Made by a program: the position numbers and the translations under genes
Assembly: GCA_016217625.1 (NCBI GenBank)
Contig: JACRHK010000149.1
Span: 1 to 6,200, forward strand
Direction: 5' to 3'
DNA length: 6,200 nt
Origin: Nitrospirota bacterium
GTDB taxonomy: Bacteria; Nitrospirota; RBG-16-64-22; JACRHK01
Shown: one piece after another, positions 1 through 6,200 of the stretch
Numbering within the stretch: the first letter of the stretch is position 1
Layout: each line of letters opens with the position of its first letter
Notes under the pieces: generated by a model
The model's input: the letters and a program-made list of their open reading frames with translations, nothing else
Databases searched by the model: none
Told to the model about the DNA's origin: nothing

Positions 1-132
1 ACCTGTGAAATCCTAAATCCGAACATCGAAATCCTAAACAAATTCGAAATTCCAATTTCAAAGTTTTGAATTTCGGACATTGGAACTTGTTTCGTATTTC
101 GTGCTTAGGATTTCGGATTTCCTGTCACAGGT
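1..132. repeat. Heptamer-phased imperfect palindrome (MITE-like), AT-rich
   Basis: The stretch divides into consecutive 7-nt blocks. The left arm has units such as AAATCCT and AAATCCG, and the right arm has their complements (TAGGATT, TCGGATT). The ends are an exact 8-bp inverted repeat (ACCTGTGA at 1-8, TCACAGGT at 125-132). Inside, 27-37 pairs exactly with 105-115. The block 36-56 pairs with 79-92 if one 7-nt unit is bulged out, and the centre folds at 57-62/65-70. It is far more AT-rich than the flanking genes. I see no ORF with any family resemblance in it and no convincing sigma70 promoter. The left end may lie outside the window. It could form a cruciform or an RNA hairpin; mobility is inferred from its form only. 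Confidence 0.8.
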
Positions 133-157
133 ATGGTTACGGGCATTGGCTGCATCG

Positions 158-185
158 ATGACTGACACAAAATGACTGACACAAC
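158..185. repeat. 14-nt tandem duplication at the start of the Clp1-like gene
   Basis: The 13-nt string ATGACTGACACAA occurs at 158-170 and again at 172-184, a 14-nt period (two heptamers). Each copy carries an ATG. The first ATG (158) opens a five-codon frame ending at TGA 173-175. The second (172) opens the Clp1-like gene. The first copy may be a decoy or a tiny upstream frame affecting initiation, or simply a slippage product. Confidence 0.75.
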
Positions 186-1260
186 CAAGGCGGCACAGGT
201 GTTGCACCGCCACCCCGCGGAATGGCAGGCCTTCGCCCGCGAGCTGGAAACGGCCAGGGGGACGGTGTGTGTCCTTGGGGCGACGGATACGGGCAAGACG
301 ACGCTCTGCAGTGCCCTCTTGCAGACTCTGTGCGACCAAGGCCTCCGGGTCGCGTACTTGGACGCGGACCTGGGCCAGTCCACTATCGGACCTCCCGCCA
401 CGCTCAGCTTGGCAATCTTTTCCGGTTCCTCCCCATCCGTCCCTCTGTATGAGATCCCTCCGCAGCGGATGGACTTCATCGGGGCCACCTCGCCCGAAGG
501 GCATCTGCTGGCCACGACGGTCGGCGTCTGGCGCCTGGTGGAGGAGGCGCGTCAGTCGGGTTGTGACGTGCTCCTGGTGGATACCTCCGGCCTGGTCTAC
601 GGCGGCGCGGCCCGGGAGCTGAAGTTCCAGAAGATCCGGCTGCTGCGGCCCGACTGTCTGGTGGCGCTCCAGCGCGGAGGGGAGATCGAGCACTTGCTGC
701 TTCCGCACGAGCGGTCGGGGGTGCGCGTCGTCCGTCTCCCCGTCTCCGATCAGGCCCTCCGCCACTCGCGGGAGCAACGGCAGGCCTTCCGGCAGCGCCG
801 CTTCCGGGAATACTTCCGGGGGGCGGAGAGTCGGGAGATCCCCCTGGATCGAATCGGCATCTACGGCTTGCCGTTGGGCACGGGTAGCCGGATGGACTTC
901 CGCGAGCTCAACCGCCTCTCCCGGATGTTGGACGCCATCGTCATCTACGGCGAGCGTAGCCCGGACATCCTTTTCCTCGTCGTGGAGGGGGGATGCGGGC
1001 GCGACCGGATCTTCTCGGTGAAAGAAGAGTTCGGTGTCCGGGAAGTCCTGGTGGTGGAGCGGACGGACCTCCAGTCCCTCCTGCTGGGGCTCAACGACCG
1101 CCGGCAGTTCACCCTGGGCCTGGGGATCCTCCAGGCGATCGATTTTCGCGCGGGCCGTCTCCGGGTGGTAACCCCCCTGCCTCGCCTTGAGGAAGTCTCG
1201 CAGATCGCGTTCGGCTCCCTCCGGGTCGATCCCTCCGGCGTGGAATTGGGGAAGGTGTAA
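172..1260 (+). CDS. Clp1/Grc3-type P-loop protein, putative polynucleotide 5'-kinase
   Basis: The product is 362 aa, soluble, with no signal peptide. It has a P-loop GATDTGKTT (residues 36-44), then the family pattern DADLGQSTIGPP (64-75), where eukaryotic and archaeal Clp1/Grc3/Nol9 proteins have a D-x-GQ motif followed by a P/G-rich turn. A hydrophobic strand then ends in DTSG (137-140), equivalent to their Walker B / N-T-x-G segment. Known relatives phosphorylate 5'-OH ends of RNA with ATP or GTP, so the likely role is nucleic-acid 5' kinase or a related NTPase. The C-terminal ~150 residues are more divergent and could bind substrate. Bacterial members are uncommon and their role is not established. 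Start ATG 172 follows an in-frame stop at 163-165 but has no clear Shine-Dalgarno; GTG 199, preceded by AAGGCGG, is an alternative. The gene ends 4 nt before the GTG proposed for GT2, so co-transcription is possible. Confidence 0.82.
   Translation: MTDTTKAAQVLHRHPAEWQAFARELETARGTVCVLGATDTGKTTLCSALLQTLCDQGLRVAYLDADLGQSTIGPPATLSLAIFSGSSPSVPLYEIPPQRMDFIGATSPEGHLLATTVGVWRLVEEARQSGCDVLLVDTSGLVYGGAARELKFQKIRLLRPDCLVALQRGGEIEHLLLPHERSGVRVVRLPVSDQALRHSREQRQAFRQRRFREYFRGAESREIPLDRIGIYGLPLGTGSRMDFRELNRLSRMLDAIVIYGERSPDILFLVVEGGCGRDRIFSVKEEFGVREVLVVERTDLQSLLLGLNDRRQFTLGLGILQAIDFRAGRLRVVTPLPRLEEVSQIAFGSLRVDPSGVELGKV
1248..1255 (+). promoter_or_regulatory. Candidate ribosome binding site for GT2
   Basis: GGGGAAGG lies within the last codons of the Clp1-like gene, 9 nt before GTG 1265. 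It is the only purine-rich site near an in-frame start for GT2 and supports that start over one inside the repeat-free downstream part, where no ATG, GTG or TTG precedes the conserved domain. Confidence 0.45.
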
Positions 1261-1261
1261 T

Positions 1262-1363
1262 ACAGTGTCCGAAGTCCAAAGTCCGAAGTCTAAAGTCCAA
1301 AGTTTAAAACTCAACATCCAAGGCCAGACCTCGGACCTCGGACCTCGGACCTCGGACACTGTT
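1262..1363. repeat. Heptamer-phased inverted-repeat element overlapping the GT2 start
   Basis: A perfect 11-bp terminal inverted repeat (ACAGTGTCCGA at 1262-1272, TCGGACACTGT at 1352-1362) encloses the element. From 1266 to 1363 the sequence splits into 14 consecutive heptamers: the left arm is variants of AGTCCRA, and the right arm has CCTCGGA four times in a row (1329-1356), the complement of a GGTCCGA unit. The left arm therefore pairs with the right arm except for A/G changes. AGTTT and AAACT (1301-1311) form a small inner palindrome. It shares period and architecture with the element at 1-132, and its TCCGA core resembles that element's unit. It reads in frame with the GT2 gene. Confidence 0.88.
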
Positions 1364-2068
1364 GAACTTTCCCTCGTCATCCCCGTGTACAACGAGGTGG
1401 AGAACCTCAGGCCGCTTTGCGACGCGATTCGCAAGGCCCTCGACCCGTTGGGACGTTCGTATGAGGTCGTGTTTGTGGACGACGGAAGCACGGACGGCAG
1501 CGGAGAGCTGCTTCGGGAGCTACGCAGCGAGGATCGCCGCCTCCGCGTCCTGCGCTTCGACCGCAACTACGGCCAGACGGCGGTTTTTGATGCGGGGTTC
1601 AAGGCGGCGCGCGGAGCGGTGGTCGTCACGCTGGACGCCGATCTGCAGAATGATCCCGGCGACATTCCGCTTCTGCTGGACCGGATCGGCGAATACGATG
1701 CTGTCTGCGGCTGGCGCAGGGAGCGGCGCGACTCCTGGAGCAAGCGGATCGGGTCGCGGATCGCCAATGCCGTCCGCAACCGGGCGACCGGAGAGGAGAT
1801 TCACGATACCGGCTGCTCGCTCAAGGCGTTCCGGCGCGAGTGCCTGGAGGGGCTGACGCTTTACAAAGGGATGCACCGCTTCCTGCCGACGCTCGTGAAG
1901 ATGCGGGGGTTCCGGGTCGTCGAGGCGCCGGTCTCGCATCATCCGCGCCGGGCCGGGACCTCCAAGTACACGAACCTTGGACGGATCTTCGGCCCGTTCC
2001 TGGATCTGCTGGCCGTCCGGTGGATGAAGAAACGCTGGCTTTCCTATCGGGTCAATGAAGAGGCATGA
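1265..2068 (+). CDS. GT2 family polyprenyl-phosphate glycosyltransferase (DPM1/ArnC-like)
   Basis: The product is 267 aa from GTG 1265. The GT-A fold begins at LSLVIPVYNE (35-44). It carries VDDGSTDGS (71-79) for nucleotide-sugar binding, DADLQNDP (124-131) as the metal-binding acidic motif, and DTGCSLKAFRREC (181-193), typical of dolichyl/undecaprenyl-phosphate sugar transferases. A basic, amphipathic tail follows without the two C-terminal membrane helices of ArnC/GtrB, so it probably works at the inner face of the membrane. It likely joins a sugar from a nucleotide donor to undecaprenyl phosphate; the sugar is unknown. Residues 1-33 come entirely from the heptamer element and look like no known domain. 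No ATG, GTG or TTG lies in frame between 1265 and the conserved domain, so the element seems to have replaced the original start region. An upstream ATG at 1187 would need a 74-nt overlap with the Clp1-like gene and is less likely. The stop overlaps the PAP2 region, suggesting coupling. Confidence 0.88.
   Translation: MSEVQSPKSKVQSLKLNIQGQTSDLGPRTSDTVELSLVIPVYNEVENLRPLCDAIRKALDPLGRSYEVVFVDDGSTDGSGELLRELRSEDRRLRVLRFDRNYGQTAVFDAGFKAARGAVVVTLDADLQNDPGDIPLLLDRIGEYDAVCGWRRERRDSWSKRIGSRIANAVRNRATGEEIHDTGCSLKAFRRECLEGLTLYKGMHRFLPTLVKMRGFRVVEAPVSHHPRRAGTSKYTNLGRIFGPFLDLLAVRWMKKRWLSYRVNEEA
2057..2063 (+). promoter_or_regulatory. Ribosome binding site choosing the PAP2 start
   Basis: GAAGAGG ends 6 nt before ATG 2070. 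It favours that start over ATG 2055, which has no purine-rich site upstream and would overlap GT2 by 14 nt. Confidence 0.5.
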
Positions 2069-2069
2069 G

Positions 2070-3053
2070 ATGAACGGGATGGCGATGGTTTTCACCAGGC
2101 AGACGTCTTGGGTAGCGGCTGCGATTTTCGTATCCCTGGCGCTCAGCCTGGCGGCTGATCCCTGGGTGATGGCAGTCCGCAGAGGACTGGACCCGGTGCC
2201 GCCCCCCCTCCTTTGGATCACTCACGCGGGGAATGGCGCCTGGCAGGCATTGGCGACGCTGTTGCTCTTCGGAACGGGCTGGGCCTTGAAGCGGGAACCG
2301 CTTCGCCGGGCCGGCCTCCTCGGCCTGGCAGCCTTCCTCGGAGCCGGCCTCGCGGTTGAAGTCCTGAAACACCTCCTGGGGGTTCCCCGTCCCCGCCTCT
2401 GGATGCAGGGGGTCGCGCATTTCGGTCCTTCCTTGGCCGACGGGTTGGATAGCTTTCCCTCGGGCCACACGAGCACCAGCTTCGCCTTGGCCGTGCTGTG
2501 GGGTCGGATGTTTCCGGCCTGGCGTTGGCCCCTGTGGGCGTCGGCCGGCGCGATCTCCCTGTCCCGCGTGGCGGTGGGGTCGCATTTTCCTTCGGATGTC
2601 ATGGGTGGCGCGATCCTGGGCTCTTGCGTGGGATGGCTGGTGGCCGTCGGCTTTCCTGAAGGGCTGCGACGGCCGTCTTCTTTCCGCTCTGGAATCGCCT
2701 GGGCGATCAGCCGGGCCCGGGGAGCGGCGGCTTGGAGTCTCCTGCTCATCATTCTGCTGCTGGGAGCGTTCCGGGGGCCGGCGTTGTCTCTCACGGTTTG
2801 GTTTGAGGGTGTGGGTTTGGGTCTCGTGGTCGTTGGTGGGATACTGGGGTTCTGGTTATTCCATCAGAGCGAAACTTGGACTTCCGATCCGCATTCCACG
2901 CAACAGAGGGTTTGGGCGGCAGGCGGCGCGCTGACGGGTATCGGGTTTCTCCTGATCCCGGAATTCAGGTGGGTGGCTCCAGTCTTCGTCGGGACGTTCC
3001 TGCTGGAGTACTGGGTCTTTGTGAGACGGCAGGTGGGCGATGGGGAAAGATAA
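2070..3053 (+). CDS. PAP2-family membrane phosphatase with C-terminal membrane extension
   Basis: The product is 327 aa from ATG 2070 (332 aa if ATG 2055 is used). All three phosphatidic-acid-phosphatase motifs are present: K-x6-RP (K100, R107, P108), PSGH (130-133) and SR-x5-H-x3-D (S165, R166, H172, D176). The histidines are those expected for a phospho-enzyme mechanism. The N-terminal ~195 residues contain several membrane helices and match the usual PAP2 size. Relatives act on undecaprenyl pyrophosphate, phosphatidylglycerol phosphate or lipid A phosphates with the active site facing the periplasm. In this operon, carrier recycling or lipid A dephosphorylation (LpxE/LpxF-like) is plausible but unproven. 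About 130 extra residues follow, with three or four hydrophobic segments that I do not recognise. The end overlaps the next gene by 14 nt. Confidence 0.88.
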   Translation: MNGMAMVFTRQTSWVAAAIFVSLALSLAADPWVMAVRRGLDPVPPPLLWITHAGNGAWQALATLLLFGTGWALKREPLRRAGLLGLAAFLGAGLAVEVLKHLLGVPRPRLWMQGVAHFGPSLADGLDSFPSGHTSTSFALAVLWGRMFPAWRWPLWASAGAISLSRVAVGSHFPSDVMGGAILGSCVGWLVAVGFPEGLRRPSSFRSGIAWAISRARGAAAWSLLLIILLLGAFRGPALSLTVWFEGVGLGLVVVGGILGFWLFHQSETWTSDPHSTQQRVWAAGGALTGIGFLLIPEFRWVAPVFVGTFLLEYWVFVRRQVGDGER

Positions 3054-4701
3054 GTTTGCAATCCCTGCGCTGCTCATCCTCTGCGGGATGCTCTTCTTCT
3101 TTGCGTTGGGGACACCCGGCCTCACTGACCGCGATGAAGCGACCTTTGCCGAGGCCACTCGGGAAATGCTCGTGAGCGGCGACTGGCTGACGCCGCGCTT
3201 CAACGGCCACCTCCGGTTCGACAAGCCGATCCTCATCTACTATCTCATGGCCCCTTCGATGCTGGTCTGGGGGGCCGATGCCCCGGGCGCCCGGCTCCCT
3301 GCCGCGGTCTTCGGCGCCGCGTTGACCCTGCTCCTGTACGGGTTTCTCCGGCGGGTTCATTCCCCCCGGGCGGGGTTTGTCGGCGCGACCATCTTCGCCA
3401 CCAGCCTGATGACCGTCCTCCTCGCCCGGGCCGCCATCACCGACATGGTCCTGGTCTTCTTCCTCACGGCCGGGATGTTCGCCGCTTTCCTGGCTCTCTC
3501 CGAGGGGAAGCGGTCGTGGTGGTGGGGGGTCTATGTGGCCCTGGCCCTGGCCTTTCTGGCCAAGGGGCCGGTGGGTCTCGTCATCCCCGCCCTGGTCTTG
3601 CTGGGGTTCCTCCTCTGGACCGGACAGACCCGGCGCTTCCTGCGGGAAGGGCATCCCCTGGCGGGCGCCGGCCTCTTTCTTCTGGTGGCGGCGCCCTGGT
3701 TCGCGGCCATGTTCCTCCTGCACGGCGAGGCCTATCTGGATGCCGCTTCCTACCACACCCTCTACCGCTACGCCTCCGTGATTGGCGGGCACGGCGGTCC
3801 CTTCTGGTTCTACCTCCCCGTTCTTTTTGTCGGGTTCTTCCCCTGGTCCGGGATGCTGCCTGCGGCCCTCTGGCGCGGATGGCGTCTTCCCGAGGCGTCC
3901 GGGCGGCCGCCGGGAGAGATCCGTCTCTTCCGTCTCTGCCTGGTCTGGGTGGGGGTCGTTTTCCTCTTTTTCTCCTCTTCCAGCACGCGCCTGCCCCACT
4001 ACCTGTTCCCCCTCGTCCCGGCCGCGGCGATCCTGACGGCCCTCCATTGGGACCGGGCCTTGTCGGGTCGGATGCGCCTGACAGGGGGGCTGTGGACGGC
4101 GGCGGTCCTGGGGGTGGCCGCGGGCGGGGCTTTGCTGGCCCTCCCCTCCTTCGCGGGACCATGGGAGGCGTCGATCCGGAAGGAGGCGCCGGGGTTCGAG
4201 TTGCAGGCGTTGGGCGACGGCTACCGCTGGCTGGGTCTCGTCCTGGCGGCCGGTCCCCTGGCGGCCGCGCTGGCGGGGCTTCGCAGCCTCCGCGCGGCCT
4301 TCGCCCTCCTGGCCGGGACGACGATCGCCGCAACGCTCCTCCTCGTGACGGTCGCGCTCCCGCCCGTGGATCGGCTTTTCCTGGCGCCGCTCCGCGCGGT
4401 GGCGGCGGAGGCGGGGGAGCGCCTGAATCCGGAAGACCGTCTGGTGGCCTACGGCGTCTTCCGGCCCAGCCTGGTCTTCTACAGCCGTCACCACGTTGTC
4501 CCGCTCCAACGGGGGGAGGCGCAAGCGATCGCTCCCTTTCTGGCGGAGTCCGGCAGGACGCTCCTCATCACCCGGTCGGACCTCCTGCCGGAGCTGGTTG
4601 GGGCAGGGGGGGAGATGACCGTCCTGCGGCGGGAAGGAGAATACCTGTTGTTGATGCCGACCCCCGGTCCGATCGGGGCGCCCGACCTTTGCGGCATCTA
4701 A
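3040..4701 (+). CDS. ArnT-like membrane glycosyltransferase (GT39/PMT superfamily)
   Basis: The product is 553 aa. A first membrane helix (about 8-24) leads to the extracytoplasmic loop DRDEATFAEATREM (30-43), where the acidic pair D32-E33 matches the catalytic/metal region of ArnT and PMT enzymes. FDKPILIYY (60-68) follows, also a family hallmark. The middle has many membrane helices, including the conserved AKGPVGLVIP turn and an RLPHYLFPLVPA segment. The C-terminal ~110 residues form a mostly soluble domain with FYSRHH, as in other bacterial PMT-like proteins. Such enzymes transfer a sugar from a polyprenyl-phosphate donor to lipid A, a glycan or a protein at the periplasmic face. ATG 3040 overlaps PAP2 by 14 nt. 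The upstream AGGTGG is close (3 nt), so reinitiation may help. True L-Ara4N transfer cannot be claimed, since no Ara4N synthesis genes are in view. Confidence 0.88.
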   Translation: MGKDKFAIPALLILCGMLFFFALGTPGLTDRDEATFAEATREMLVSGDWLTPRFNGHLRFDKPILIYYLMAPSMLVWGADAPGARLPAAVFGAALTLLLYGFLRRVHSPRAGFVGATIFATSLMTVLLARAAITDMVLVFFLTAGMFAAFLALSEGKRSWWWGVYVALALAFLAKGPVGLVIPALVLLGFLLWTGQTRRFLREGHPLAGAGLFLLVAAPWFAAMFLLHGEAYLDAASYHTLYRYASVIGGHGGPFWFYLPVLFVGFFPWSGMLPAALWRGWRLPEASGRPPGEIRLFRLCLVWVGVVFLFFSSSSTRLPHYLFPLVPAAAILTALHWDRALSGRMRLTGGLWTAAVLGVAAGGALLALPSFAGPWEASIRKEAPGFELQALGDGYRWLGLVLAAGPLAAALAGLRSLRAAFALLAGTTIAATLLLVTVALPPVDRLFLAPLRAVAAEAGERLNPEDRLVAYGVFRPSLVFYSRHHVVPLQRGEAQAIAPFLAESGRTLLITRSDLLPELVGAGGEMTVLRREGEYLLLMPTPGPIGAPDLCGI

Positions 4702-4720
4702 TCGTCCGCCCGGCGGGGCA

Positions 4721-4726
4721 AGGAGG
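4721..4726 (+). promoter_or_regulatory. Strong ribosome binding site for the LAB_N gene
   Basis: AGGAGG, 7 nt before ATG 4734, is the best Shine-Dalgarno in the window. It lies in the 32-nt gap after the first ArnT-like gene, which has no terminator-like hairpin. This small gene may be translated more strongly than its neighbours. Confidence 0.8.
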
Positions 4727-4733
4727 AAAGAGG

Positions 4734-5009
4734 ATGCGTTGGGAGGATTGGTGGATCGTCATCGGCTTCGGGGGGCAGTTCCTCTTCTTCATGCGTTTCC
4801 TGATCCAGTGGATCGCCTCTGAAAGACGGAAGGCGAGCGTCATTCCCGTGGCCTTCTGGTATTTCAGCCTGGGAGGGAGCGCGATCCTCCTGGCCTACGC
4901 GATCCACCGGGTGGACCCGGTCTTCATCGCGGGGCAGTCGATGGGGAGCCTCATCTATATCCGGAACCTGGTCCTCATCCGGCGGCAGCGTGCAGAAGCC
5001 CTGGATTAA
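4734..5009 (+). CDS. LAB_N-domain small membrane protein
   Basis: The product is 91 aa and consists almost wholly of the domain found at the N-terminus of some LpxB (lipid-A-disaccharide synthase) proteins. Visible hallmarks are GQFLFFMRFLIQW (14-26), SVIPVAFWYFSLGG (35-48), YAIHRVDPVFIAGQ (55-68) and IYIRNL (74-79). There are three hydrophobic segments and a basic tail. It lacks the glycosyltransferase part of LpxB, so it is not a disaccharide synthase. The domain is, as I recall, grouped with the PQ-loop/MtN3 (SWEET) clan, and 90 residues with three helices is the size of a SemiSWEET half transporter. Standalone copies often sit beside GT2 and ArnT-like genes, as here, so a role in moving or presenting polyprenyl-linked sugar is a reasonable guess, not established. 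The last 20 nt overlap the next gene. Confidence 0.9.
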   Translation: MRWEDWWIVIGFGGQFLFFMRFLIQWIASERRKASVIPVAFWYFSLGGSAILLAYAIHRVDPVFIAGQSMGSLIYIRNLVLIRRQRAEALD

Positions 5010-6200
5010 GCCAGTTCTCATTGTCCTGTGCTGGGCGATTGTCGTCCTGCCGGGGCTGTGGGCCCGCGACCTCTGGCCGCCGGATGAGATCCGATTCGCC
5101 GAGGTCGCCCGCGAGATGGCGGCCACGGGAGAATATTTCCTCCCCCACCTCAACGGCGCCGTCTACGGCGAAAAACCGCCGCTCTTTTTCTGGCTCACGG
5201 CCCTCCTGAGCGCGTTCCTGGGGTGGGGGGAGATCGCTTCGCGCCTGATTGCAGGACTGGCCGCGTTGGCGACGCTGCTCCTGACCTATGCCCTGGGGAG
5301 GCGGATGTTTTCTCCGGAGGCCGCCTTCCTGGGCGCGCTCGCGCTGCTTACTTCTTTCCTCTTCCTCGCCCTCGCCCAGATCGGCCTCCTGGATATGCTC
5401 CTGACCTGCTGGACGACGCTGGCCTTGTATGCGTATGTAAGCACTCAGCACTCAGCACTCAGCGCTCAGCACTCAGGAAGATGGCTCTTCCTTTTCTACG
5501 TGGCGCTGGCCCTGGCCGTCCTGACGAAGGGGCCGGTGGGGTTCGTCCTTCCCGTCATAGTGGTCCTCGCGTTTGCTTTCTGGATGGAGAAAGCGCACGG
5601 TTGGCGAGCGATCCACCCGCTATGGGGGATCCCCCTTGTGCTGGTCCTGGTGGGTCTCTGGCTGGTGCCGGCCCTCGTCAAAGGCGGATCCGAGTATGCC
5701 GAGCTGGTCCTTTGGAAACAGCAGGCCGCCCGGATTGCCCAGACCTGGAATCCCGAGCCCGGGACTTTCCAGAGCCATACCAGTCCCTGGTACTTCTATT
5801 TCGCCGTTTTCCCCCTGAGCTTCCTCCCCTGGATCTTTTTTCTCCCTCTCGCCCTCCTGTGGGCCTGGCGCAAGCGACAAGAAGCAGGCCTCCGCTTTCT
5901 GTTGGTCTGGGTGGGAGGCGTCTTCCTCTTCTTCAATCTGCTTTCCGGTAAGCAGCCTCATTATCTGCTTCCGATGTTCCCCGCGTTGGCGCTTCTGGTC
6001 GGGGGGATGTTGGCCGAAGGGGGCTTGAGGGTGGAGGCGGGAGGCTCAAGGGAATCGGTTTTATTTCCCGTAGGGCAGGCCCCGTGGGAAGCCTCGCTTC
6101 TATCGGGGCAGGCCACTGCGCCTGCCTCTATCATGATAGGCGGGGACGGCGCCCCGCCCTACCTTAGTCCACACGAAGGTGTGCTGTGGACGAGGAGCAA
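4990..6200 (+). CDS. Second ArnT-like membrane glycosyltransferase, GTG start, 3' partial
   Basis: The frame is open from GTG 4990 to the window end (403 codons and 2 nt, no stop). No in-frame ATG comes before the conserved region; the first, at 5113, would cut into it, so GTG with translational coupling to LAB_N is the best start although no good Shine-Dalgarno is seen. A first helix is followed by WPPDEIRFAEVAREM and GEKPPLFFWL, the same loop motifs as in the first ArnT-like protein. TKGPVGFVLP and KQPHYLLPMFPAL (321-333) also align with it. The donor is likely a polyprenyl-phosphate sugar, acting at the periplasmic face. Residues 151-162 are encoded by a heptamer repeat, and everything after about residue 345 is repeat-derived low-complexity sequence where further helices would be expected. 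The real protein may therefore carry insertions or may degenerate beyond the window. Confidence 0.85.
   Translation, partial: MQKPWIKPVLIVLCWAIVVLPGLWARDLWPPDEIRFAEVAREMAATGEYFLPHLNGAVYGEKPPLFFWLTALLSAFLGWGEIASRLIAGLAALATLLLTYALGRRMFSPEAAFLGALALLTSFLFLALAQIGLLDMLLTCWTTLALYAYVSTQHSALSAQHSGRWLFLFYVALALAVLTKGPVGFVLPVIVVLAFAFWMEKAHGWRAIHPLWGIPLVLVLVGLWLVPALVKGGSEYAELVLWKQQAARIAQTWNPEPGTFQSHTSPWYFYFAVFPLSFLPWIFFLPLALLWAWRKRQEAGLRFLLVWVGGVFLFFNLLSGKQPHYLLPMFPALALLVGGMLAEGGLRVEAGGSRESVLFPVGQAPWEASLLSGQATAPASIMIGGDGAPPYLSPHEGVLWTRS
5440..5474. repeat. Five tandem AGCACTC heptamers inside the second ArnT-like gene
   Basis: Four exact copies and one copy with a single change (AGCGCTC, the fourth) lie head to tail. 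They encode about 12 residues (STQHSALSAQHS) in a loop between two membrane helices. The other ArnT-like protein has only a short SEGKRS linker at this place, so the repeat reads as an insertion that kept the frame. Confidence 0.9.
6022..6063. repeat. Degenerate GG-N5 heptamer tract
   Basis: Six consecutive 7-nt blocks each begin with GG (for example GGCTTGA, GGGTGGA, GGCGGGA, GGCTCAA). CTTGAG (6024-6029) and CTCAAG (6045-6050) are inverted repeats, giving a hairpin form. The tract stays open in the frame of the second ArnT-like gene. It is weaker than the other three islands and partly explained by local G richness. Confidence 0.5.
6070..6162. repeat. REP-like cluster of palindromes in frame within the second ArnT-like gene
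   Basis: An outer inverted repeat (GTAGGGC at 6070-6076, GCCCTAC at 6156-6162) encloses adjacent hairpins: 6088-6100 (GAAGC/GCTTC), 6107-6126 (GGCAGGC/GCCTGCC), a perfect 12-bp palindrome at 6128-6139 (CTATCATGATAG) and 6139-6158 (GGCGGGG/CCCCGCC). GGGCAGGCC also occurs as a direct repeat (6073-6081 and 6106-6114). The element is 93 bp, a multiple of three, and begins on a codon boundary, so it adds 31 codons without a stop. Confidence 0.75.
6167..6191. repeat. Short hairpin next to the palindrome cluster
   Basis: GTCCACA (6167-6173) pairs with TGTGGAC (6185-6191). An alternative inner stem is CACAC/GTGTG around GAAG. It may be part of the same composite element, which could continue past the window. 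Confidence 0.55.

Follow-up and report, generated by a model that had tools for sequence, protein, structure and literature searches.

The window analysed here is a 6,200-bp stretch of contig JACRHK010000149.1 of a Nitrospirota bacterium. Its genes and heptad-repeat islands are as follows:

1..132: island 1, a degenerate AAATCCK heptad hairpin 5' of the CLP1_P gene (lag-7 match 0.56; fold z -5.4)
7..53, plus strand: 5' arm of island 1 (inverted-arm alignment)
75..121, minus strand: 3' arm of island 1 (inverted-arm alignment)
172..1260, plus strand: CLP1_P-domain gene between islands 1 and 2 (PF16575, E 4.2e-39)
1262..1363 (102 bp): island 2, a heptad hairpin with the word RGTCCRA in both arms (lag-7 match 0.67; fold z -4.5)
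1262..1297, plus strand: 5' arm of island 2, GTCCRAA units
1265..1267, plus strand: GTG supplied by island 2, predicted start codon of the GT2 gene (in-frame translation)
1265..2068, plus strand: glycosyltransferase family 2 (GT2) gene, whose 5' end carries island 2 (PF00535, E 7e-34)
1327..1362, minus strand: 3' arm of island 2, GTCCGAG units as read on the minus strand
4990..6198, plus strand, running past the window: PMT-type membrane glycosyltransferase gene holding islands 3 and 4 (PF02366, PF13231)
5440..5476, plus strand: island 3, an AGCACTC array of 5.3 units inside the PMT gene (TRF score 67; lag-7 match 0.93)
6022..6063, plus strand: island 4, GAGGNTN-like heptads of the PMT gene that have probably decayed (lag-7 match 0.54; homologue comparison)

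Named CLP1 loci were found only in Methylomirabilota (45%) and Nitrospinota (37%).

The initial annotation described four islands of period seven, of which islands 1–3 are clear. The lag match is the share of matches at a given lag, compared with equally long windows of a 60-contig sample of the same genome; because this sample holds other true arrays and some N, the numbers of windows reaching an island's value are not false-positive rates. The lag-7 value of island 1 (0.35 at lag 6, 0.39 at lag 8) is reached by 921 of 323,051 windows, that of island 2 (0.35 and 0.31) by 374 of 324,851, and that of island 3 by 96 of 328,751. Island 4 is weak by DNA alone (0.39 at lag 6, 0.26 at lag 8; 4,458 of 328,451 windows) and was not reported by the array caller. 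Homologues lend it some support, as the corresponding stretch reads GLRVEAGGSR (P0001), RLRVEARGSR (P0002) or SLRLEVRGSN (P0004), and P0003 has another insert at that place.

Of the four islands, just two are inverted repeats. Islands 1 and 2 (folded as 1255-1370) fold better than all of 200 shuffles, whereas islands 3 and 4 are equalled by 198 and 26 of 200 shuffles, respectively. The arms of island 1 are 77% complementary and its outer ends read ACCTGTG and CACAGGT. Island 2 is a single inverted repeat with 36-nt arms, 81% complementary and separated by 29 nt. Its two units, AGTCCRA and CCTCGGA, had been listed as different heptamers, but the two strands carry the same word: the reverse complement of CCTCGGA is TCCGAGG, which rotates to GGTCCGA. 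The sequence of island 2 has 29 matches in its own genome, counting itself. Read in frame from island 2, the GT2 product begins VSEVQSPKSKVQ...TVELSLVIP, and homologue P0122 begins MTIELSLVIP. Island 3 encodes STQHSALSAQHS within the PMT gene, and in-frame arrays also occur inside enzyme genes such as Tgt and TrpE.

These islands are not isolated. The pattern withstood the test that the initial annotation had named as able to refute it: a lag scan of the 60-contig sample (307 kb, counted without N runs) gave 0, 12, 76, 12, 10 and 0 islands at lags 5, 6, 7, 8, 9 and 10. Sequences simulated with an order-4 Markov model yielded no island at threshold 14. The 307 kb hold 88 period-7 arrays in 24 word clusters, which bears out the view that the units differ. 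Period seven is not strict genome-wide, since arrays of 8 (13), 6 (13), 9 (7) and 11 (2) nt stand beside them, and the best lag was 14 (2x7) in 15 of 90 array calls. In each word, conserved positions adjoin free ones. According to a home-made gene finder, 44 of the 88 arrays are wholly intergenic, 33 lie at or near gene ends and 11 are mid-gene, in a genome with 11.5% non-coding DNA. The arrays share with heptameric simple sequence repeats (STRR-like) their tandem head-to-tail 7-nt units in several copies (the 88 arrays, islands 2 and 3 included), their dispersal and enrichment outside genes, and a copy number that varies among relatives (heptamers at site S1, octamers at S5). In the narrow sense, STRRs belong to cyanobacterial hosts.

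Inverted pairing is common. A reverse-complement partner lies within 200 bp of 33 of the 88 period-7 arrays, leaving 55 without one at that cut-off, and pairing extends to period 8 (5/13; control 8.8% of 148) and period 6 (3/13; control 0 of 89). Arm polarity is strongly biased inside word families (30 of 34 pairs). The word CCAATTT, in the genus of G001–G003, forms 10 same-orientation pairs and 8 inverted ones, so pairing is not always inverted. Units are more alike within an arm (0.81–0.84) than between opposite arms (0.73) or with other loci of the family (0.64), and within-arm likeness exceeds between-arm likeness in 50 of 62 paired elements, which is what independent homogenisation of each arm predicts. 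Variable positions are often mismatched between the two arms, and unit likeness inside arrays does not fall with distance. A common register running through the loop is suggestive only: p was 0.0006 in a set including 19 contigs picked for matches or Y1_Tnp genes, in which mod 5 and mod 8 also gave 0.03 and 0.046, 0.06 leaving those contigs out, and 0.049 in the other genus. An apparent systematic mismatch at one GTCC-word position was dropped because it was a product of how the elements were oriented, and the idea that every word obeys one purine/pyrimidine grammar was abandoned by reasoning alone.

Comparison of three species of one genus at the DNA level (~82–97% identity in aligned stretches) revealed orthologous sites at which an array is absent, has another copy number, or consists of another heptamer or of octamers. 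Site S1 carries about 6 CCAATTT units, about 10 or none in the three species, and its indel spans 29 bp in the alignment, a length not divisible by 7; S5 has 3 octamers in one species and at least 12 in another. At S10 and S15, heptamers in one species stand against octamers in the other. At 5 of 11 array sites (H, K, S1, S11, S13), one species has a heptad array or hairpin that another lacks, and at K and S13 heptad hairpins are nested within octamer arrays. At coding sites, word switches rest on proteins and not on DNA. Read in this way, the predicted GT2 start has GTCCRAA in the window, GTCAGGA in P0121 and no word in P0122; the PMT gene has AGCACTC in the window against GTCAGRA followed by CACGCCT; and Tgt has GTCAGTC against GTCAGGA at the N-terminus and CAGCNNT against GTCAGRA at the C-terminus. 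The four switched words each lie two letters from GTCAGGA (taking one unit of the degenerate CAGCNNT array); a distance of at most two letters separates 17% of random word pairs and 14 of 45 pairs among the genome's ten main words. Three letters separate AGCACTC from CACGCCT, which is not closer than chance.

We regard the islands, with about even confidence, as belonging to a class, found throughout the genome, of short arrays with 7-nt words (8 or 6 nt in fewer cases) that often pair into hairpins and vary between relatives, and in which change by whole units likely keeps the period. Arrays would be gained and lost in whole units and single-base variants would sweep each array, so that spacing likely stays constant while the letters drift. 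Replication slippage or misaligned hairpin repair may drive the gain, loss and homogenisation of units. Slippage alone is insufficient to place one word at many loci; in what is the weakest step of the scheme, a word might reach new loci with other arrays serving as the template, perhaps when forks that have stalled at hairpins are repaired. Most copies would serve no function under selection and would survive at places where an insertion does no harm. The mechanism or protein counting seven bases that had been proposed is not supported: S10 alternates between heptamers and octamers, arrays of periods 8 and 6 are paired as well, and such a protein is not needed, because arrays come and go and whole-unit change likely fixes the period. 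Several observations weigh against whole-unit drift, namely the 29-bp indel at S1, the flat likeness with distance and the gap between AGCACTC and CACGCCT. In G000, moreover, words at different loci of that genome are hardly more alike (6.5% of pairs at most one letter apart) than words of G000 are to those of G003 (5.4%), a result that gives no sign of homogenisation across that genome. Loci share 9 runs of four or more mixed units, against ~2.6 expected from shuffles summed over eight families, too few as a sign of segment copying. The heptamer/octamer difference at S10 and S15 cannot be produced by unit drift, and the nested hairpins at K and S13 look like insertions.

It is possible, though rather unlikely, that a transposase acting in trans mobilises the elements as miniature hairpins of REPIN or MITE type, with decay of the heptad arms coming later. 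The presence/absence sites, the nesting at K and S13 and the polarity bias would fit, as would the four Y1_Tnp matches in the window's genome. REPINs and RAYT-mobilised REPs are likewise dispersed, with two inverted arms around a variable loop, an arrangement also found in the 33 paired arrays. Their ends, however, are conserved, and REP arms carry a conserved GTAG-type tetranucleotide, whereas the arms here are heptads of many words, and a transposase would need to recognise each of the 24 word clusters. Eleven same-word loci compared by eye had no loops, flanks or ends in common, save for one nested palindrome shared by L029 and L032. Neither conserved terminal inverted repeats at the same-word loci nor target-site duplications at K and S13, the marks of a MITE, were seen by eye, and copying of whole hairpins in the MITE manner was rejected because loops, flanks and ends look unrelated. 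The same comparison upholds the earlier argument that simple copying of one sequence is insufficient. Around the four Y1_Tnp matches, 1.9 kb to either side was free of arrays of period 6 to 9, and so of cognate copies flanking a rayt gene; two of the matches are at contig ends, with one flank each outside view. RAYT mobilisation was set aside on this ground; Y1_Tnp occurs in 29 of 41 genomes, too broadly to tell.

An unlikely variant holds that the architecture (period 7, sometimes 8 or 6, with a preferred polarity) is inherited and spread rather than the sequence, and that a copying process writes the current word into permissive sites and rewrites occupied ones with a new word.

A role as RNA hairpins in transcript-end protection, attenuation or translation control is improbable. 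It would suit the enrichment between and at the ends of genes, the placing of 33 of 37 intergenic arrays between co-directional genes (background 107/136) and the transcription of most Xanthomonas heptamer arrays (PMC4692102). Against it stand the mid-gene arrays, the unconserved word and presence at orthologous sites, the frequent mismatches between arms and the scarcity of arrays between convergent genes (1/37; background 9/136), for which terminator function was rejected. Slightly less probable still is that a chromosome-organising protein (IHF/HU, or one reading every seven bases) binds the arrays. This would account for the variable distance of the inverted arrays, also seen in PMC2700814, and for conserved beside free positions in every word, but sits poorly with words that differ among families and, at one site, among species, with an architecture common to periods 6 and 8, and with the many arrays lacking a partner at the cut-off used.

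The class preferred here has several published relatives, and the initial annotation's contrast with known heptamer repeats as single-unit tandem arrays, not inverted-repeat elements, does not stand, as inverted pairs are in print (PMC2700814, PMC4692102). In Geobacter metallireducens, multicopy paired arrays (classes 1–3) lie in tandem on opposite strands at variable distance, as same-unit arrays do here, with units of 7 and 8 nt; read on the opposite strand, their MTYCTGA is the GTCAGRA family (PMC2700814). Unlike our arrays, they form few fixed classes, for which IHF/HU binding was proposed, and same-site word switching is not described in the accessible part of that report (PMC2700814). 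The GGGAATC and GGGGA(C/T)T arrays of Xanthomonas and Nostoc also have period 7 and are mainly intergenic between aligned ORFs; in Xanthomonas, two genomes hold 70 and 75 convergent inverted pairs, and length varies much among species (PMC4692102). That work followed one G-quadruplex-forming word per genome, whereas many words without a G-tract basis occur here. In the P6b hairpin of the Nostoc trnL(UAA) intron, which likewise contradicts that contrast, degenerate heptad arms of either TDNGATT or NNTGAGT fill one structure and indels measure 7 and 14 nt, though at one locus only, within a group I intron (PMC4476775, PMC3488679). The TAACTGA repeats of Beggiatoaceae, cyanobacteria and Bacteroidetes are dispersed heptamer arrays, and two Cyanothece strains differ mostly by 7-nt indels and also in site presence; in contrast to ours, they are direct repeats of a single word, in the main genome mostly just 5' of start codons, with 169 direct sets and one indirect (PMC4679880).

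Our analysis adds to these systems a biased arm polarity and, within one genus, switches of the word at shared sites. That heptameric repeats are in excess in bacteria was noted as early as 2007, with the stretch of DNA held by DNA polymerase offered as a tentative cause (as cited in PMC4692102). Intergenic sites in three species of one genus are empty, filled, lengthened or switched in word or period, and these same-site differences make the birth, word change and loss of arrays directly observable. If, as is likely, the letters drift while the spacing of seven is kept, this would turn the old puzzle of seven-base repeats into a testable one.

Arrays of tandem 7-nt units are abundant in the source assembly of the window (1.61 Mb in 289 contigs, 77.9% complete; the window is contig C76). 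The initial annotation had proposed a genome-wide scan for lag-7 enrichment, and this enrichment is evident in 60 further contigs (C1–C60; 331 kb, 307 kb without N): with islands defined by at least 20 of 28 matches, 76 were found at lag 7 versus 12 at lag 6 and 12 at lag 8, with 0, 10, and 0 at lags 5, 9, and 10. Order-4 Markov simulations yielded zero arrays with a local-score caller at threshold 14. The C1–C60 catalogue lists 88 period-7 arrays, together with 13 of period 8, 13 of period 6, seven of period 9, and two of period 11. The period-7 arrays fall into 24 clusters of unit sequences (words), the ten largest containing 68 of the 88, and eight word families each combine conserved positions (e.g., GTC of GTCCRAN) with freer ones. 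Provided that C1–C60 are representative, the whole genome would contain approximately 460 period-7 arrays.

The window contains genes for a CLP1_P-domain protein, a family 2 glycosyltransferase (GT2), PAP2, a PMT-type glycosyltransferase, a small LAB_N protein, and a second PMT protein, the last truncated by the window end. Among the matches listed, CLP1 loci with named hosts come only from Methylomirabilota (45%) and Nitrospinota (37%). Four islands had been described as strictly period-7 stretches with different heptamers:

Lag-7 islands of the window, with the fraction of matching positions
1–132: island 1, inverted repeat, 0.56
1262–1363: island 2, inverted repeat, 0.67
5440–5476: island 3, 0.93
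6022–6063: island 4, 0.54 (weak)

Islands 1–3 all match better at lag 7 than at lags 6 and 8, and the signal is weak in island 4. Homologues lend island 4 some support, as a heptad-like peptide is kept there in the homologous proteins P0001, P0002, and P0004 and replaced in P0003. A common period with many words was likewise recovered, except that the two heptamers listed for island 2 are a single word, RGTCCRA, on opposite strands. Islands 1 and 2 fold better than 200 of 200 shuffles; no folding was seen for islands 3 and 4 in the 200-shuffle comparison. At window 158–184, a perfect 14-nt duplication, ATGACTGACACAAA (2 × 7 nt), lies at the CLP1_P gene start codon, its upstream copy opening a five-codon frame that ends in TGA; this duplication could be a newborn array. 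Another palindromic insert (window 6064–6170; GTAGGGC ... GCCCTAC) lies in frame within the second PMT gene. P0002 has a similar peptide at the same place, P0003 and P0004 have none there, and a related peptide follows GRRMFSPQ or GRRLLSPQ in P0002 and P0003.

According to a home-made gene finder, by which non-coding DNA makes up 11.5% of the sample, 44 of the 88 arrays are wholly intergenic and 11 are mid-gene; of the others, 23 extend across a gene end and 10 have a start or stop no more than 60 nt away. Flanking genes are co-directional for 33 of 37 intergenic arrays flanked by two genes, versus 107 of 136 among all spacers of at least 60 nt. Heptad-encoded peptides are read in frame in the Tgt and TrpE genes of the window's genome, identified through solved relatives, with three array-derived stretches per gene (L019 3502–4695 and L031 7–1407). 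The mid-gene stretch of Tgt coincides with a three-residue gap in the alignment with solved Tgt chains, which would be consistent with a loop.

Fixed sites provide direct evidence for array gain, array loss, and change of words. In three species of one genus (G001–G003), 22 sites (A, B, D, E, H, K, and S1–S16), picked non-randomly as alignment breaks, were compared. Sites B and S12 are unreadable owing to N in one species, and nine (E, S2, S3, S4, S6, S8, S9, S14, and S16) either have palindromes of another kind or high-copy elements or lack a comparable array, the G002 piece at S4 stopping short of the G003 array. Among the 11 array-bearing sites, the heptad array or hairpin is missing in at least one species at five (H, K, S1, S11, and S13), and period or word set differs at three (D, S10, and S15).

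Array differences at single intergenic sites
D: G003 with octamers; G001 with two heptamers and octamers
S10: G003 with CCAATTT; G001 with ACAGAGGC octamers
S15: G003 with octamers; G001 with TTTAGGG plus CCAATTT, partly N
S5: three octamers versus at least 12
S7: octamer array broken by a second array
A: two words in G003; mainly one in G002; N in G001

At K and S13, a heptad hairpin lies within an octamer array. The two filled species at S1 have approximately 6 and 10 CCAATTT-like units, and the main indel in the alignment is 29 bp, which is no multiple of 7. In L188 (G001:C26:2840–3260), approximately five tandem units of TTTAGGG, the plant telomere word, adjoin a CCAATTT array. The genus is rich in octamer arrays (GGTGAATN, ACAGAGGC; L168, L170, and L172 of G003), some with nested inserts; arrays of periods 8 and 7 number 18 and 30 in G003, 8 and 8 in G001, and 5 and 6 in G002. 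N runs in G001 (L154, L186, L188) coincide with array sites A, B, and S15 and with the gap at S12, and draft assemblies may under-count such arrays. In contrast to the heptad arrays, an element of approximately 123 bp (L091 9077–9201, G003:C2), with many matches in each species and absent at the same site in G001 and G002, is of an ordinary MITE-like kind with conserved sequence.

Because a pure heptad array translates into a peptide repeat of seven residues, words can be read from proteins, three of which were compared. The GT2 start of the window carries a GTCCRAA element, the source of the predicted GTG start codon; in P0121 (86% identical) the peptide MRSQESGVRSQE corresponds to GTCAGGA, and P0122 (89%) reads MTIELSLVIP from residue one, array-free. 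The PMT site has AGCACTC in the window, and P0003 (77%) has GTCAGRA (peptide RSQESEVRS) followed by CACGCCT (PRLTPHASRLT). In Tgt, the N-terminus has GTCAGTC in the window's genome versus GTCAGGA in P0242 (87%), and the C-terminus has CAGCNNT versus GTCAGRA in P0242 and P0243, the latter listed without its N-terminal part. Heptad-like inserts are absent at the GT2, PMT, and Tgt sites in the more distant homologues of these alignments. Two letters separate each of the four switched coding words from GTCAGGA, which is closer than in most random pairs: 17% of random word pairs and 14 of 45 pairs of the window genome's main words differ by at most two letters. CACGCCT and AGCACTC are three letters apart.

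A reverse-complement partner (17 of 21 matches, within 200 bp) accompanies 33 of the 88 arrays versus 0.9% of 1,279 control words, and four of the 88 have another array pointing the same way. The polarity of pairs is non-random: across 61 contigs (C1–C60 and the window), none picked for hits, 30 of 34 pairs have the family-preferred polarity, whereas the null mean is 23.0 and none of 4,000 simulations reached 30. This count omits the TTCGAAA family, whose word differs from its own reverse complement by a single letter; adding this family and a further 20 contigs gives 57 of 62. In G001–G003 it is 11 of 12 (60 of 4,000 simulations as high), and one word there also forms 10 same-orientation pairs. 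Unit similarity is highest within an arm, lower between arms, and lowest between loci. Among 11 same-word loci, neither loops nor flanks show kinship by eye, except for one nested palindrome, GCCTGCCTGCCGG...CAGGCAGG, common to the GTCC-family arrays at L029 3572–3670 and L032 3063–3135.

A further 23 samples, which differ in size and comprise 21 genomes from the phylum plus two named loci, divide into nine with lag-7 islands and 14 without. Array pairs at most one letter apart make up 38% within G003, 25% and 34% in comparisons of G003 with its congeners, and 0.6% between G003 and family f7, with 1.9% for random words; words form a partial dialect. Within genome G000 the figure is 6.5% versus 5.4% between G000 and G003, hardly closer, and part of the word stock therefore seems common to the families.

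A protein that counts seven bases had been suggested. It is unneeded for one period with many words; the length of DNA held by DNA polymerase is an earlier idea on the preference for seven, cited in PMC4692102. Were an array to gain and lose whole units, its period would be inherited automatically, and a point change in one unit could spread through it; orthologous arrays would then reach different words at unchanged spacing. Whole-unit change with letter drift covers much, not all, of the pattern. Heptamers versus octamers at one site and nested hairpins would need insertion of foreign arrays. One word reaching many loci would require copying between loci, of which the sole direct sign is weak.

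Cyanobacterial STRR are a known repeat class. Paired heptamer and octamer arrays are described in Geobacter metallireducens (PMC2700814), convergent GGGAATC arrays in Xanthomonas (PMC4692102), a heptad hairpin built on two words in the Nostoc trnL intron (PMC4476775, PMC3488679), and TAACTGA arrays (PMC4679880, PMC4853749). Same-site word switching across a genus and biased hairpin polarity were not found among the best matches in the open-licence literature. Heptad arrays and their hairpins form a large population that is changing fast.
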